From IMG/VR virus record IMGVR_UViG_3300032092_000276, positions 1 to 22,854 of that record: a DNA stretch of 22,854 nt; one strand, given 5' to 3'. The notes beneath the pieces are model-generated. The model saw only the letters and a program-made list of their open reading frames with translations, did no database searches and was not told the origin of the DNA. This document shows, one piece after another, positions 1,690 to 6,910 of this stretch (positions are counted from its first letter, which is position 1; each line of letters opens with the position of its first letter). This stretch comes from a virus. Position numbers and translations under genes: made by a program.

Positions 1690-1700
1690 GCAGGGCTTTT
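1676..1700 (+). terminator. Rho-independent terminator
   Basis: GCCCTGCT (1676-1683), loop CCATA, AGCAGGGC (1689-1696), then TTTT. The 8-bp stem is perfect and GC-rich. It ends the first transcription block of two or three genes. The stop codon of the 53-residue ORF (1687-1689) overlaps the loop, so a ribosome finishing that ORF would cover the stem and could reduce termination. Confidence 0.8.
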
Positions 1701-1704
1701 CTAT

Positions 1705-1715
1705 GGGGGGGGGGG
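1705..1715 (+). repeat. Homopolymer G11
   Basis: Eleven consecutive G follow the terminator by a few bases and precede two TCACAAGCC copies. It is the strand complement of the C11 run at 116-126, so the two runs bracket the first block of genes in inverted orientation. Confidence 0.9.
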
Positions 1716-1718
1716 TTA

Positions 1719-1742
1719 TCACAAGCCTAAGAATCACAAGCC
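1719..1742 (+). repeat. Pair of TCACAAGCC copies, part of a dispersed 9-mer family
   Basis: Copies lie at 1719-1727 and 1734-1742, separated by six bases. The same 9-mer occurs at 128, 876, 956, 2486, 2981, 6477, 7288 and 11783 (start positions), all on the + strand. I saw no GGCTTGTGA. About 0.1 copies per strand are expected by chance in 23 kb. Several are preceded by AT or CCAT. Copies occur both between and inside genes, and in more than one reading frame. Confidence 0.7.
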
Positions 1743-1796
1743 GACTGGGGCGTGGACAATTTCAACTCTGGCCCACTTCGACTGGGGCGTGGACAA
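1742..1796 (+). repeat. Two direct copies of an 18-bp element
   Basis: CGACTGGGGCGTGGACAA is found at 1742-1759 and 1779-1796, start-to-start spacing 37 bp (about 3.5 helical turns). Both copies are in the 156-bp gap between the terminator block and the next gene. I found no further exact copy in the window. They may be operators, or early promoter elements for the phage or host polymerase, as each contains TGGACA, close to a sigma70 -35 box. Confidence 0.75.
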
Positions 1797-1820
1797 AAGG
1801 CCCGCCTTTGATGGTACACT
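1790..1820 (+). promoter_or_regulatory. Candidate host sigma70-type promoter
   Basis: TGGACA (1790-1795), inside the second 18-bp repeat, and TACACT (1815-1820) resemble -35 and -10 boxes. The 19-bp spacer is longer than ideal. Position fits: it is downstream of a terminator and 25 bases before ATG 1846, which starts a long chain of coupled genes. Weak match overall. Confidence 0.35.
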
Positions 1821-1845
1821 TAAGAGGTCCTCAACGGAGCCGACC

Positions 1846-2040
1846 ATGACCCAACCGCAAGTAGCTCAAAACCGCCTTCCCATCATCGACTACACGGAAG
1901 ACCTTCAGGAATTTTACGCTTTCAGAGATGCCTTGCTTGGTCCTCCCAGTCCTGTGGTAGAATCCTCTGGTCCAGGCATCAGCTCCTCTGAGCCTGAACC
2001 TATCCCTCCCAACACCTTCCCCGCCTCCGACATCTACTGA
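1846..2040 (+). CDS. Small acidic hypothetical protein
   Basis: ATG 1846 has GGAG about seven bases upstream, so I prefer it to the GTG at 1789, which would read through the repeats and the putative -10 box. The 64-residue product (start MTQPQVAQNR) has an ordered-looking N-terminal half with LQEFYAFRDALLG and a Pro/Ser/Glu-rich, probably disordered C-terminal half. It is the first gene after the candidate promoter and shares one base with the next gene. Small acidic early proteins of T7-like phages often inhibit host enzymes, but nothing in this sequence points to a target. Confidence 0.65.
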   Translation: MTQPQVAQNRLPIIDYTEDLQEFYAFRDALLGPPSPVVESSGPGISSSEPEPIPPNTFPASDIY

Positions 2041-2282
2041 TGAGCAACTCCAGCAGCACCGTGGACACCTCCCCCGTCAACCCCATCATCCAGCAGGCTC
2101 GCTGGATCACTACCAAACTCAGGATCAAAGGCCAACGTGCCCTCACTGGGGGAGAGAAAACCTTCATTGCCCAGCTCTCCTATCGAGCTACCGTCCAAAA
2201 CGATCGCACCGCCCAGCGACTGATCAGCGACATCACCGTGGCCCATCTGGAATATCAACTTACCCTCACATCAAACAAATGA
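2040..2282 (+). CDS. Small hypothetical protein
   Basis: The 80-residue product starts at ATG 2040, overlapping the previous TGA by one base. After a Ser/Thr-rich 12-residue leader it appears all-helical (IIQQARWITTKLR, then GGEKTFIAQLSYRATVQ and a final helix). There is no signal peptide, membrane segment or cysteine. It ends with an ATGA overlap onto the next gene. No family recognised. The shared chain suggests expression with its neighbours early in infection. Confidence 0.7.
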   Translation: MSNSSSTVDTSPVNPIIQQARWITTKLRIKGQRALTGGEKTFIAQLSYRATVQNDRTAQRLISDITVAHLEYQLTLTSNK

Positions 2283-2617
2283 GTATTGCCTTTGAGCCCT
2301 TGGTTGACCCTGAGGACTATGATGAGTTGATCTATGAGATGCTTCACAGTGTCGTCGATCGCACCATCGAGTTGGCATCCAAGGCTGACACCGCTTACAC
2401 ACCTCACGACAACACTGAGGGAGAACGTGATGCTGATAATGAGGATCGTGAAGAGTCCTATGAAGGTTTCGTCAACATCATCCGCTCACAAGCCAACTTC
2501 ACCCCATCAGAACAAGCTGAGTTTCAATCCACTGGAATACTGCTGAATTGTCTGATCAACGCAGCAGTGGCACGACGGTCTAGCCTCTACCACGACACCC
2601 ATCCGGAGGAATCATGA
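2279..2617 (+). CDS. Acidic hypothetical protein
   Basis: The 112-residue protein starts at ATG 2279 (ATGA overlap with the previous gene) and ends with an ATGA overlap onto the next. It is strongly acidic, with a Glu/Asp-rich stretch around residues 46-60 (NTEGERDADNEDREE) between two helical regions. A TCACAAGCC copy (2486) lies within the gene. Acidic helical proteins of this size can be DNA mimics or polymerase inhibitors in phages, but I see no specific family signature. Confidence 0.7.
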   Translation: MSIAFEPLVDPEDYDELIYEMLHSVVDRTIELASKADTAYTPHDNTEGERDADNEDREESYEGFVNIIRSQANFTPSEQAEFQSTGILLNCLINAAVARRSSLYHDTHPEES

Positions 2618-2868
2618 TCCACTACACCCCACCTCAAACCATTCCACCCGCCCAAGCCGGCGAGATCGCAGTCTACATTGCAGCCAAAGCACTATGCTTT
2701 GCCTTAGACGGCAGGCTTCCCACATCCGAACTCCAAGCAGGCCTTGATCGAGGCCTTGCTGCAGTAGGTCTGCGGCCCATTCCTCCTCACCAGATCATGC
2801 CAATCTGGAAATCGGCTATACAGATTGTTGAAGACCCAAAAGCCTGTCCATTTCTTCTAAAACCCTGA
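2614..2868 (+). CDS. Small hypothetical protein, 3' end duplicated downstream
   Basis: The 84-residue product starts at ATG 2614 with GGAGGAATC just upstream, a good Shine-Dalgarno, and ATGA coupling. It has a helical core (AGEIAVYIAAKALCFALDG) and ends in CPFLLKP. The DNA encoding CPFLLKP and its stop reappears at 3814-3837, after the glycosyltransferase gene, where it joins the next gene by an ATGA overlap. Before the insertion this gene was probably followed directly by the gene at 3834. Function unknown. Confidence 0.75.
   Translation: MIHYTPPQTIPPAQAGEIAVYIAAKALCFALDGRLPTSELQAGLDRGLAAVGLRPIPPHQIMPIWKSAIQIVEDPKACPFLLKP
2844..2861 (+). repeat. 18-bp direct repeat, left copy
   Basis: CTGTCCATTTCTTCTAAA, at the 3' end of the gene ending at 2868, is repeated exactly at 3813-3830. 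The repeats flank the glycosyltransferase gene with 969 bp start-to-start spacing. Confidence 0.9.
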
Positions 2869-2883
2869 ACTTCCCACACCGTC

Positions 2884-3774
2884 ATGTACTTGGAAGCCGT
2901 CATTGTTTGCGTCAACTATTCTGACTTTCTGGCGCACACCCTGCCAGAGAATCGAACAATGTTTGACAACATGGTTGTTGTCACAAGCCTCAACGATCTG
3001 GATACAGTTAGAATTTGCAATAAATACAACGTCAGGTGCATCCAGACCGATGCGTTCTATCAAAACAAAGAAGTGTTCAACAAAGGAGCTGGCATCAATG
3101 TCGGCCTAAAAGCGTTGAATCGTACAGGATGGGTTTTGCACCTCGACGCAGACATCTATCTACCTCCGCTAACTCGGCATGTACTCCGTAAGGAATGCCT
3201 CCAGCCAAACAAGATATACTCAGCTGATCGTCTGATGTGTCCCGACTACGAAAGCTGGGCACAATATCGTAGGAGCTGGAGAAGCGTGCATGAAGACTGG
3301 AGCTTCACTCACCTCGACCTATTTCGAGCTGGCAGTCGTATTGTGCAGTATGGCGAATACTTGGATGAAGGCACTCCCGATGGTTGGGTCCCTATTGGCT
3401 ACTTCCAACTTTGGAATCCAAATGGATCAGGAATTCACACCTATCCAGCAAACCACGGTGCGGCCGATCGCAGCGACGTGTTGCATGCAAAGCAGTGGAC
3501 AAGGGCCAATAGGGTCCTGATTCCCGAAGTGGTAGTCATTCACCTGGAAAGCGAAGAGTGCACGATGGGAGCAAACTGGAGGGGAAGAAGAACCATGTGG
3601 TTCGGGCCTGCACCTCAGCTCCCACAGATCAAAGAAGCGGAAGTGCCACCGGAGGAGTCCTGCACGCACTTCACACCCTGCCCGCTTCCTCCTACCGTGC
3701 CTCGTCGCTGCCCAGAACTTTGGTGGCCGCTGCGTGGTATAGTACGATGGCTGTTGAGGCTTCCCCGCTACTGA
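2884..3774 (+). CDS. Glycosyltransferase, GT-A fold
   Basis: The 296-residue protein begins at ATG 2884. The N-terminus has beta-strands typical of a GT-A nucleotide-sugar domain (EAVIVCVNYSDFL, MVVVTSLND), then NKGAGINVGL and HLDADIYLPP, whose D88-A-D90 is the metal-binding DxD motif. A later part contains GYFQLWNP and a VVVIHLES segment. The C-terminus is Pro-rich and ends in a Trp-rich amphipathic stretch. The enzyme would transfer a sugar from a nucleotide donor; the acceptor may be phage DNA, a virion protein or a host surface glycan, and cannot be read from sequence. Its first half is more AT-rich than neighbouring genes. It is flanked by 18-bp direct repeats and interrupts an otherwise coupled gene chain, so it looks like an inserted accessory gene. 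Confidence 0.85.
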   Translation: MYLEAVIVCVNYSDFLAHTLPENRTMFDNMVVVTSLNDLDTVRICNKYNVRCIQTDAFYQNKEVFNKGAGINVGLKALNRTGWVLHLDADIYLPPLTRHVLRKECLQPNKIYSADRLMCPDYESWAQYRRSWRSVHEDWSFTHLDLFRAGSRIVQYGEYLDEGTPDGWVPIGYFQLWNPNGSGIHTYPANHGAADRSDVLHAKQWTRANRVLIPEVVVIHLESEECTMGANWRGRRTMWFGPAPQLPQIKEAEVPPEESCTHFTPCPLPPTVPRRCPELWWPLRGIVRWLLRLPRY

Positions 3775-3812
3775 ATGGCAACTCCCGCCCAGCTGGTCTA
3801 AGAGCCGAACGT

Positions 3813-3830
3813 CTGTCCATTTCTTCTAAA
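3813..3830 (+). repeat. 18-bp direct repeat, right copy
   Basis: Exact copy of 2844-2861. In the same reading frame it again encodes CPFLLK, followed by P and a stop (3814-3837). Upstream in that frame a TAA occurs at 3799-3801, so only a remnant of about eleven codons remains, preceded by EPNV rather than EDPKA. This is a gene-end scar rather than a gene. Confidence 0.9.
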
Positions 3831-3833
3831 GCC

Positions 3834-4073
3834 ATGATCCCATCCAATGAACAAGTTGATGCAGAGCTTGATAGATTCAGGCCTACGTCTGCTTTCAATT
3901 CAGCCAAGCCTCCACTAGGCCTGCGTCCTCGACGTATTGCCGATAACCTCAGGGCCATCGAGATTCACGAAGCAATCGGTCGAGCCTTGACCCATATTCA
4001 CATCCAGCCCATCCCCTCTGAATGGATCGATGAGTTTGTTGAGATCATCAACCGCTACCCACCCAAGCCATGA
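3834..4073 (+). CDS. Small hypothetical protein
   Basis: From ATG 3834 the product has 79 residues (start MIPSNEQVDAELDRFRP, end EIINRYPPKP). The start overlaps the stop of the duplicated CPFLLKP remnant as ATGA, the same coupling seen at intact junctions nearby, which supports this start. An in-frame ATG at 3747 would add 29 residues, including the repeat read in another frame, and is less likely. The protein has a basic linker (GLRPRRIADNLR) and two helices. It shares an ATGA junction with the small membrane gene. No family recognised. Confidence 0.65.
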   Translation: MIPSNEQVDAELDRFRPTSAFNSAKPPLGLRPRRIADNLRAIEIHEAIGRALTHIHIQPIPSEWIDEFVEIINRYPPKP

Positions 4074-4210
4074 TCACTCCCGTTGAGCTCTGCATTGCTG
4101 TCGGATACTCTACTGCTGCTGGCATTGCCTTAGGGGCGGAGTTGTGGCCCTTTGCTGTCTGCCTGGTTGCCCTGCAAGTCGCGTTTGTCACCAAGACCTT
4201 AACTACCTGA
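4070..4210 (+). CDS. Small membrane protein
   Basis: ATG 4070 (ATGA overlap with the previous stop) to TGA 4208-4210 encodes 46 residues. Residues 6-40 are almost entirely hydrophobic, with a short Glu/Leu/Trp/Pro turn in the middle (GAELWPF), so it could span the membrane once or as a tight two-helix hairpin. The C-terminus is short and polar (TKTLTT). Small membrane proteins are frequent among early genes of T7-like phages, but no specific family is recognised. Confidence 0.6.
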   Translation: MITPVELCIAVGYSTAAGIALGAELWPFAVCLVALQVAFVTKTLTT

Positions 4211-4213
4211 ACC

Positions 4214-4405
4214 ATGGACCTGAAATCATGTAGTCACTGTGGCGTCGTAATTGATGGCGACAGGCTCTACTTTGCCCCAAGAGGAAAGTGGCACGATGAA
4301 GAAGGCGTGATACGCCGTCATCTCGTGGCTGTCAAACCCAATAAGGACCTAGGGGCTTATGTCGAGTGCCCATCATGTCACCAGCCCATTTTCGAAGATA
4401 GCTGA
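4214..4405 (+). CDS. Small Cys4 zinc-binding protein
   Basis: The 63-residue product starts at ATG 4214, three bases after the preceding stop. CSHC (C6, C9) near the N-terminus and CPSC (C52, C55) near the C-terminus form a zinc-ribbon-like Cys4 set, separated by a basic, beta-rich middle with KWHDEEGVIRRH. Zinc ribbons of this size bind nucleic acid or bridge proteins. Its location immediately before the RNA polymerase would fit a transcription or host-takeover role, but that is inference from position. Confidence 0.7.
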   Translation: MDLKSCSHCGVVIDGDRLYFAPRGKWHDEEGVIRRHLVAVKPNKDLGAYVECPSCHQPIFEDS

Positions 4406-4408
4406 CAC

Positions 4409-6910
4409 ATGGCAACTCCAGACCAGATCCAACGGCAATTCCAACGAGAGCTTCAGGCCCACCAGGAAGGCATCCAACGCCTTCACCTGGCCACATCCAA
4501 GGCCGAAGCACGCCAGTATGCCTCCAGCTCCATCTACGGGCAGAAACTCGTCGACCAGGGGCTGGGGGCCGCCATCGAGGCCATCGAATCGAAACGCTCC
4601 AAGATCGCTGCCGGCTCCACCGGGGAGTACGCGGCCCACGTTGCCCTCCTCGAGGGTGTGCCCTCTTCGACCTTGGCCCTGATCGTCCTCAAAACCACCA
4701 TCGATCTGGTCTTCGAAAAGCGTGATCGGTTCACCATTGGCACCCCCTACGCCAGCGTGGTTCATGCCATCGGCTCGCGGGCCTTCGATGAGTGTCTCCT
4801 GAGTCAATTCTCACAAGCTGAACCCGACGCCTACAATGGCACCAGAATCCACCGATCCAAAGGCTACGGCTACCGGGTGGCAAAGTACCGAGCCACCATG
4901 CGGCGCATTTCCCACGATGCCATCCGCTGGCCGGCAGGGTACAAGGTGAAAATAGGGGCTTGGCTCCTGGATCGGCTGTGCTCCGCCACCGGCTGGTTCC
5001 ATGCTGAGGAGGTGCGGACCAGCGGCCGAAAGACGCTCACCGTGCTGCGGCCTGCCCCTGAGGTCACCAAAGCCATCGAGGCCATGCTGCACGCCGCAGA
5101 GGCCGTCTCAGCCTGCTGCTGGCCCATGCTGTGCGAGCCCAACCCATGGGAGCCTGATCTGGCTGCCACCCCTGGAGGCTACCTGACCTCTGAGCTGCGA
5201 TCGGGGACCCGTTCCTGGCTCATCCGAGGAGTCAGTCATGCCAAGGTGTCTCGGAGCTTTCCACCTAAAGGGGGAACGCGAAACCGCGCCTCCCTAGATG
5301 ACGGTGAGGGGTCGGGAGACCCCACCTCCCAGACAGCTCTCCTAGCTGAACCAGCTATCTTAGCTATCTCTCCTGAATATCATGCCATCAATCCTGGGTC
5401 ACCAGATCTCCAGATTCCTGTCCGCTTCCTGAACACCATCCAACAGGTGGCCTACCAGATCAACCCCTCCATCCTGGAGGTCGCCATCAGGTGTCAGGAG
5501 GCCCGCCTCTCGATCGGATCCTTCCGGAACTCCGACCCTCTCCCCCTCCCTCACAAACCAGACCCCTGGGAGACGGCCTCTGAAAAGGAGAAGAAGGCCT
5601 ACAAGAAGGGTCGCGTCGAGGTCGAGGAGGAGAACTCCCTCCTGGCCCAGCGCAACTACCAGACCTCTGAGACCCTCTACATCGCCAAGATGTACCGGGA
5701 CGAGGAGTCATTTTTCTTCCCGTGGTCATTCGACTTCCGTGGTCGGGTCTATCCTCTCGCCAACCACCTCAACCCACAGGGCACCGATTTTGCTCGCTCC
5801 CTGCTGGTGTCGTCCTACTCCGGCCCTGCCGATCGGGAGTGGCTGGGTTTCCAGGTGGCCACCACCTTCGGCCTGGGAAAGGAGACCCTTCTGGAGCGTC
5901 AACGGTGGGTCGAGGATAACCGGGGCCTGATCGCCGGCATCGCCCGAGACCCTATGGGCACCATCTCCACCTGGCAGGGGGCCGACGAACCCTGGCAGTT
6001 CCTGGCCGCCTGCATCGAGTTCTACGCCTGCTTCATCGACTGCTCCAGGGCCTGGTCCAATCTCTTCGTGGGCTTCGACGCCACCTGCTCTGGCCTTCAG
6101 CATCTGGCAGCCCTCACCCGGGACCGTGGAGCTGCTGAGCTGGTCAACGTGGCTCCCACGCCCAAGCCCGCCGACGCCTACAAGACCGTGGCCGAGGCCT
6201 CAAAGCGATACCTCCTCGAGGCGTTCCACCCACTGATCACCCGCAAGCTCACCAAACGGGTCGTGATGTGCCTCCCCTACGGGCTCACCCAGAGCTCCGC
6301 CCGGGATTACCTTCGGCAGGCACTGCCCAAGGGTCATGGGATCCCACTGCCCGACCTGGTGGAGGCAGTCTACCGCAAGGCCATCCCAGAGGTCCTTCCA
6401 GGCCCCATGCGGGCCCGGGAGTGGATCCAGAAGGTGGTGAACCAGGTCTCCCAGGACACCGGCCGTCCTGTGGCCTTCACAAGCCCATCCGGCTTCCCAG
6501 TGATTCTGGACAAGCGGGTCTACCCTACAGAGCTGGTCGACACCAAGCTGCTGGGCCGCCGCATCAGGGTGACCGTGGCAGACTTCGATTCCACCACCGC
6601 TCCCCTCAACAACCGCAAGATCACCATCGGATCGGTGCCAAACCTGATCCACGCCTTCGATGCGGCCCTGCTGCACCTTGCCTTCGAGGAGTGGGAGAGG
6701 CCGATCGCCCTTGTTCACGACTGCATCTCGACTCTTTCCTGCGATGTTGGCTGGACAATGGACCACATCCGGGGAATCTTTGCTACGATGTACGAGGAAG
6801 ACCAGCTGGGCCGCTGGGCTGATCAGCTCGGAGTCCCTGTGGACCCTGATGTCATGATCGGAACCCTCGACCCAGCTGAAATCCGAGAATCCAACTACCT
6901 GTTCTGCTGA
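4409..6910 (+). CDS. T7-like single-subunit DNA-directed RNA polymerase
   Basis: The 833-residue enzyme (T7 gp1 is 883) transcribes middle and late phage genes. Visible signatures: DFRGRVYPL before the palm; motif A FVGFDATCSG with catalytic D557; motif B with K616 and Y624 at the same eight-residue spacing as T7 K631 and Y639; motif C VHDC with catalytic D771. The C-terminus is NYLFC, a hydrophobic foot comparable to T7's FAFA. Residues about 281-321 (5249-5371) form a Gly/Pro/Ala-rich segment with no counterpart I recall in T7 or cyanophage enzymes, and the DNA there can form strong hairpins. ATG 4409 lies three bases after the previous stop; the end overlaps the next ATG by one base. Confidence 0.97.
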   Translation: MATPDQIQRQFQRELQAHQEGIQRLHLATSKAEARQYASSSIYGQKLVDQGLGAAIEAIESKRSKIAAGSTGEYAAHVALLEGVPSSTLALIVLKTTIDLVFEKRDRFTIGTPYASVVHAIGSRAFDECLLSQFSQAEPDAYNGTRIHRSKGYGYRVAKYRATMRRISHDAIRWPAGYKVKIGAWLLDRLCSATGWFHAEEVRTSGRKTLTVLRPAPEVTKAIEAMLHAAEAVSACCWPMLCEPNPWEPDLAATPGGYLTSELRSGTRSWLIRGVSHAKVSRSFPPKGGTRNRASLDDGEGSGDPTSQTALLAEPAILAISPEYHAINPGSPDLQIPVRFLNTIQQVAYQINPSILEVAIRCQEARLSIGSFRNSDPLPLPHKPDPWETASEKEKKAYKKGRVEVEEENSLLAQRNYQTSETLYIAKMYRDEESFFFPWSFDFRGRVYPLANHLNPQGTDFARSLLVSSYSGPADREWLGFQVATTFGLGKETLLERQRWVEDNRGLIAGIARDPMGTISTWQGADEPWQFLAACIEFYACFIDCSRAWSNLFVGFDATCSGLQHLAALTRDRGAAELVNVAPTPKPADAYKTVAEASKRYLLEAFHPLITRKLTKRVVMCLPYGLTQSSARDYLRQALPKGHGIPLPDLVEAVYRKAIPEVLPGPMRAREWIQKVVNQVSQDTGRPVAFTSPSGFPVILDKRVYPTELVDTKLLGRRIRVTVADFDSTTAPLNNRKITIGSVPNLIHAFDAALLHLAFEEWERPIALVHDCISTLSCDVGWTMDHIRGIFATMYEEDQLGRWADQLGVPVDPDVMIGTLDPAEIRESNYLFC

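Follow-up and report, generated by a model that had tools for sequence, protein, structure and literature searches.

Phage mosaicism has been attributed to illegitimate recombination at gene boundaries or at short conserved boundary sequences (PMC3029335). The closest published case that we found for the locus described here is gene 68 of mycobacteriophage Island3: its 3' end shares approximately 50-60 bp with the upstream gene, its close relative Brujita has one copy and no extra gene, and the difference has been explained by recombination at short shared ends (PMC3029335). Our locus resembles Island3 in that an inserted gene lies beside a tail-sharing gene and that a close relative is single-copy and lacks the insert (PMC3029335). 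The nature of the second tail differs, however. In Island3, the inserted gene encodes the common tail as its own C-terminus, and the single copy of Brujita is a recombinant of both (PMC3029335). The second tail of our locus, in contrast, is an untranslated stump, beside which the first 18 nt of an RNA polymerase (RNAP) gene have been left. The survival of both the stump and the RNAP start points to an illegitimate join and not to an exchange between tails.

The window, i.e. the whole stretch of DNA that was analysed, is a 22,854-bp virus record from a T7-like phage with cyanophage kin; it consists of one metagenomic contig and is probably a fragment. The closest named relatives of its RNAP are those of Syn5-like Synechococcus podoviruses (about 38% amino acid identity). 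Thus, the phage resembles the Syn5-like cyano-autographiviruses (Synechococcus phage Syn5, S-CBP42) in its single-subunit RNAP, whereas these phages have no DNA match to the early region of the window, and the predicted glycosyltransferase (GT) and gene 2614 are unmatched there. Among 50,697 phage records, zero DNA matches were found for the early region (1700-5200) and zero protein matches for gene 2614 and for GT, or a relative of GT, as the query. For gene 3834, we found weak partial matches only in the phage records and no relative among the viral contigs. Residues 25-75 of the gene 3834 protein resemble, at about 40% identity, short proteins from SPO1-like phages of Bacillus and T7-like phages of Pseudomonas. 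The features of the locus are listed below, where designations such as L009 refer to related viral records.

2614..2868, + strand: gene 2614, an early gene of 84 aa, present as an L009-like allele; the left repeat copy lies at its end
2844..2861, + strand: left copy of the exact 18-bp repeat, within a 48-bp repeat of 79% identity (2821-2868), at the end of gene 2614
2869..2883, + strand: 15-bp spacer ahead of the GT start; from gene 1789 to RNAP, only one other gap exceeds 3 nt (open reading frame coordinates)
2884..3774, + strand: predicted GT2-like, GT-A-type glycosyltransferase, 296 aa, DxD at D88/D90
3775..3792, + strand: scar 1, the first 18 nt of an RNAP gene (6 codons, MATPAQ), abutting the GT stop
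3788..3837, + strand: scar 2, the 3' end that remains of a second 2614 allele (L011-like), together with the former ATGA junction (three-way alignment)
3813..3830, + strand: right copy of the exact 18-bp repeat, an exact match to the left copy
3834..4073, + strand: gene 3834, 79 aa, chimeric (BLASTN and protein alignment)
4070..4210, + strand: 46-aa gene, whose L013 homologue directly precedes RNAP
4214..4405, + strand: zinc-ribbon-like gene of 63 aa, located between the 46-aa gene and RNAP; L013 has no such gene at this place
4409..6910, + strand: single-subunit phage RNAP, resident copy (Pfam RNA_pol 1.1e-57), closest to L011

According to the open reading frame coordinates, the genes from 1789 to RNAP are tightly packed, with overlaps or gaps of at most 3 nt. 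There are two exceptions, namely 15 nt before GT and 59 nt between GT and gene 3834, and GT is therefore the sole break in a coupled gene series. It is also the place of a direct repeat. The sequence CTGTCCATTTCTTCTAAA is present exactly twice in the window (2844-2861 and 3813-3830), and a repeat search extends this exact core to 48 nt with 79% identity (2821-2868 and 3790-3837). No direct repeat longer than 18 bp was detected anywhere in the window. In 300 dinucleotide shuffles of the window, the longest direct repeat measured 16 bp when its copies lay within 1 kb of each other and 17 bp when the distance was not limited; as no 18-bp direct repeat arose, we consider the repeat to be real.

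A preliminary description of this DNA had reported that the exact repeat flanks GT and that both copies end in CPFLLKP and a stop, which we confirm. The coordinates likewise bear out that the left copy ends gene 2614 (stop at 2866-2868) and that the stop of the right copy (3835-3837) overlaps the ATG at 3834 as ATGA. The copies had also been described as lying in the same frame. This is correct for the remnant itself, but no gene reads into the right copy, because there is an in-frame TAA at 3799-3801 and GT ends at 3774. When one repeat copy and the segment between the copies are removed, an intact 84-aa gene, an ATGA and an intact 79-aa gene are obtained, and the proposed coupled pair is thus restored.

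The window contains a second 18-bp direct repeat that is unrelated to the first. The sequence CGACTGGGGC occurs as a pair, 30-37 bp apart, at 1742-1759 and 1779-1796, and such pairs were also observed in L013 (3042 and 3079) and L051 (4 and 34). It is possible that this pair, upstream of the early operon, acts as a control site.

Next to the repeat itself, the gene order in related viruses is informative. Searches with RNAP and gene 2614 resulted in five distinct relatives with a readable region before RNAP. In L009 (identical to L012), L016 and L051, the 2614 homologue is directly followed by RNAP. L013, together with L017, which has the same region, carries the order 2614-ATGA-3834-ATGA-46-aa gene-RNAP, and its ATGA-joined homologues of genes 2614 and 3834 are located at 5636-5884 and 5881-6078. 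In L011, the 2614 homologue is joined by ATGA to a gene with a 3834-type N-terminus (9-266 and 263-499), followed by a 66-aa gene and RNAP; a scan for the 3834 N-terminus found L011 as the only match. Before RNAP, GT is absent from 5/5 distinct relatives that show the RNAP start, and a protein search detected it in none of the 11 relative records, several of which are fragments. Hence, the GT-free, ATGA-joined neighbours that the preliminary description had suggested searching for are present in L011 and L013/L017, and the pattern that it had named as contrary evidence, i.e. GT at this place without the repeat in all relatives, was not seen among the relatives examined. When the sequence that encodes CPFLLKP was sought in a degenerate DNA scan, 27 contigs were obtained, one of which was recognised as related, namely the L009 contig. 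Upstream of the 2614 homologue in L009, at about 650-1160, lies a gene that by eye resembles a GNAT-type acetyltransferase; in L051 and in the window, this position is filled by gene 2279 or its homologue.

The blocks around GT have different closest relatives. The region 2614-2869 has 81.6% DNA identity to L012 (1201-1456) and 67.3% to L011, and it is followed beyond GT by an L011-like block: positions 3785-3887 align without gaps to L011 214-316 (BLASTN, 83.5%, E 1.5e-25), which spans the end of the 2614 gene and the start of the next gene in L011. Gene 3834 changes affinity within its length, as its first 17 aa are L011-like and its body is L013-like. The match of 3905-4211 to L013 (5901-6216) continues up to the RNAP start of L013. 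RNAP is again closest to L011, with a DNA identity of 87.3% compared to 82.2% for L012. The sequence CTGACACATGGC before RNAP is found in the window (4399-4412) and in L011 (694-707) despite different preceding genes, i.e. the 63-aa zinc-ribbon-like gene in the window and the 66-aa gene in L011. This common sequence is a further indication that genes were exchanged while the junction with RNAP was retained.

Between GT and gene 3834, we found two scars. The first one, the RNAP start at 3775-3792 (ATGGCAACTCCCGCCCAG), had been overlooked in the preliminary description. It is identical to the first 18 nt of the L009/L012 RNAP gene (start 1456) and agrees with the RNAP start of the window itself at 16/18 positions, where the best value in 200 shuffles of the region was 14/18. 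The scar forms an 8-codon micro-ORF that ends with the TAA at 3799-3801, and it is preceded by a zero-gap stop/ATG junction, as is the RNAP of L009. The second scar reads QLV-stop-EPNVCPFLLKP-stop, compared to QLVQDPRVCPLLLKP-stop in L011. In a three-way alignment, the window tracks the L009 RNAP to 3792 and the 2614 tail of L011 from 3788, and the scars overlap by a shared microhomology of about 5 bp (CCCAG/CCCAA). Both remnants are untranslated or micro-ORF scars.

The repeat had initially been interpreted as a single gene end that was duplicated. Beyond the 18-bp core, however, the right copy agrees with the L011 allele at 23/27 positions and with its own left copy at 17/27. Since the right copy is L011-like and the left gene is L009-like, the repeat copies are the ends of two different alleles, and the right copy is the stump of a second, L011-like one. 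The core itself is identical in both copies and differs from L011 at 4/18 positions; this identity could stem from a parental allele missing among the sampled relatives or from local gene conversion.

A further candidate for a captured RNAP start was not counted. The 66-aa gene of L011 (500-700) begins with 12 nt that also start the RNAP gene of L011 (ATGGCCACTCCC), but the same 12 nt are found in L013 on an unrelated gene at 3147. The PHROG match of this 66-aa gene starts at residue 6, and here a captured RNAP start is possible.

From the allele affinities, the identities of both scars and the GT-free relatives, we infer a donor gene order, an order of events and a recombination pathway. We propose, with a probability of about 0.8, that two related T7-like phages recombined, one an L009-like parent with the order 2614-GT-RNAP and the other an L011/L013-like parent with the order 2614-ATGA-3834. 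Before this event, GT would have entered the L009-like parent where the stop of 2614 meets the start of RNAP, so that the GT stop would have been followed by a full RNAP gene beginning with ATGGCAACTCCCGCCCAGATCCAACG. This donor order is probable because GT arrived together with an RNAP gene start; no phage with this order was found among the relatives searched. The other parent, near L011 and L013, would have carried 2614-ATGA-3834 and further genes before RNAP. The segment consisting of 2614, GT and the RNAP start was then probably imported from the L009-like phage. The right crossover would have been illegitimate, with the microhomology of about 5 bp (CCCAG/CCCAA) connecting codon 6 of the donor RNAP to a point in the resident 2614 that is about 15 codons short of the gene end. 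The left crossover would lie somewhere in or upstream of 2614; it cannot be placed more precisely, because the L011 record stops there and the upstream genes of L009 are different ones. The recombinant would thereby have gained GT and a full donor-type 2614, and retained the last 15 codons of the old 2614 with its ATGA junction to 3834. As the relatives are only 67-87% identical in DNA, the true parents are unsampled. The earlier proposal that GT was added by recombination that kept the old junction thus holds, given the GT-free 2614-ATGA-3834 order in L011 and L013/L017, although its mechanism needs correction.

Instead of two parents, the insertion might have duplicated the tail of gene 2614, in a target-site-like manner or by replication slippage, and the copies might have diverged later. 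Such a duplication would fit the exact 18-bp core and the C-terminal peptide that the copies have in common. We nevertheless regard it as improbable: outside the core, the right copy is nearer to L011 than to its own left copy, it runs on into gene 3834 as in L011, and the RNAP start at 3775-3792 is left unexplained. In view of the allele affinity, we rejected a target-site duplication proper, as the copies are two divergent alleles. Insertion by a transposon or a homing endonuclease was also rejected, since the flanking copies are divergent and GT is the only gene between them, with no transposase or endonuclease gene there.

The order of events could also be reversed, such that the GT arrangement is old and the GT-free relatives are deletions through recombination between the tails. 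Although such a deletion is mechanically easy, since joining the 18-bp copies gives two intact ATGA-coupled genes, we give this order very little credence. GT is lacking in all five relatives with an RNAP start, including the most divergent ones (L016 and L051), scar 1 needs a pre-existing 2614-RNAP or GT-RNAP order, and the single tail of L011 is not a recombinant of the left and right copies. Lastly, one metagenomic contig with segments that resemble different relatives could be an assembler chimera of two co-occurring phages. This is scarcely plausible here, as the about 5 bp that are common at the 3792/3793 join are below what an assembler usually needs, the genes are intact on both sides and the flanks keep the gene order of the family.

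In the proposed recombination, the acquired gene encodes a predicted, divergent GT2-like enzyme. Pfam GT2 models matched members of the family with values up to 2.7e-7, and the protein of the window with 0.012, which is below the cut-off. Relatives were found on eight other viral contigs (49-56% identity in the best tblastn segment; about 50-58% amino acid identity over aligned residues 1-245); bacterial genome records contain more distant relatives. D88 and D90 do not vary in the alignment. The family carries no name in NCBIfam or PHROGs. An AlphaFold2 model is confident for approximately residues 1-110 only, i.e. the N-terminal, nucleotide-binding half, and the best Foldseek hits are mostly nucleotide-sugar glycosyltransferases of the GT-A type, at low TM-scores. 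From about residue 245, the C-terminal tail is proline-rich and then hydrophobic and basic; it is unique and has CPELWWPLRGIVRWLLRLPRY as its end. The tails of several relatives are likewise tryptophan-rich or hydrophobic and basic. Based on the fold, the tail and the position before RNAP, the predicted enzyme is probably membrane-associated and would modify an envelope-linked glycan early in infection.

A moron in the strict sense has its own promoter and terminator, and a deviating base composition is often cited. We found no promoter-like site just before GT in consensus scans, by which promoters of other types may be missed. Just after GT, its strand showed no terminator-like site in a scan whose terminator count did not exceed that of shuffles. 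The comparison of base composition, which had been suggested as a check, was uninformative as a mark of foreign origin: the GC content of GT (0.516) is like that of the small flanking genes (0.499-0.551). Given these negative scans and a composition like that of the neighbours, we do not call GT a strict moron. The locus is instead a gene insertion by mosaic recombination, with a gene that is absent from relatives and blocks that have different closest relatives. It resembles mosaic joins in that, within a compact operon, the new gene fits exactly between one stop codon and the next start codon, and in that the adjoining blocks differ in their relatives.

GT might in addition be a removable cassette, since a recombination event that joined the two tails would excise it precisely and give back the coupled 2614-3834 pair. 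We consider this very unlikely; if it were true, the population may switch between GT-plus and GT-minus, and the old junction would be a built-in exit.

Across six arrangements, the stretch between 2614 and RNAP contains 0 to 4 extra genes, always placed between stop and start codons, and is thus a site of repeated gene gain. The window is a clear and well-resolved case of known, ordinary phage mosaicism near gene boundaries. Whereas most mosaic joins are traceless, both parental gene junctions persist here as short scars. A single genome therefore allows the parental gene orders, the breakpoint and the microhomology to be read, and these can be tested with the help of relatives.
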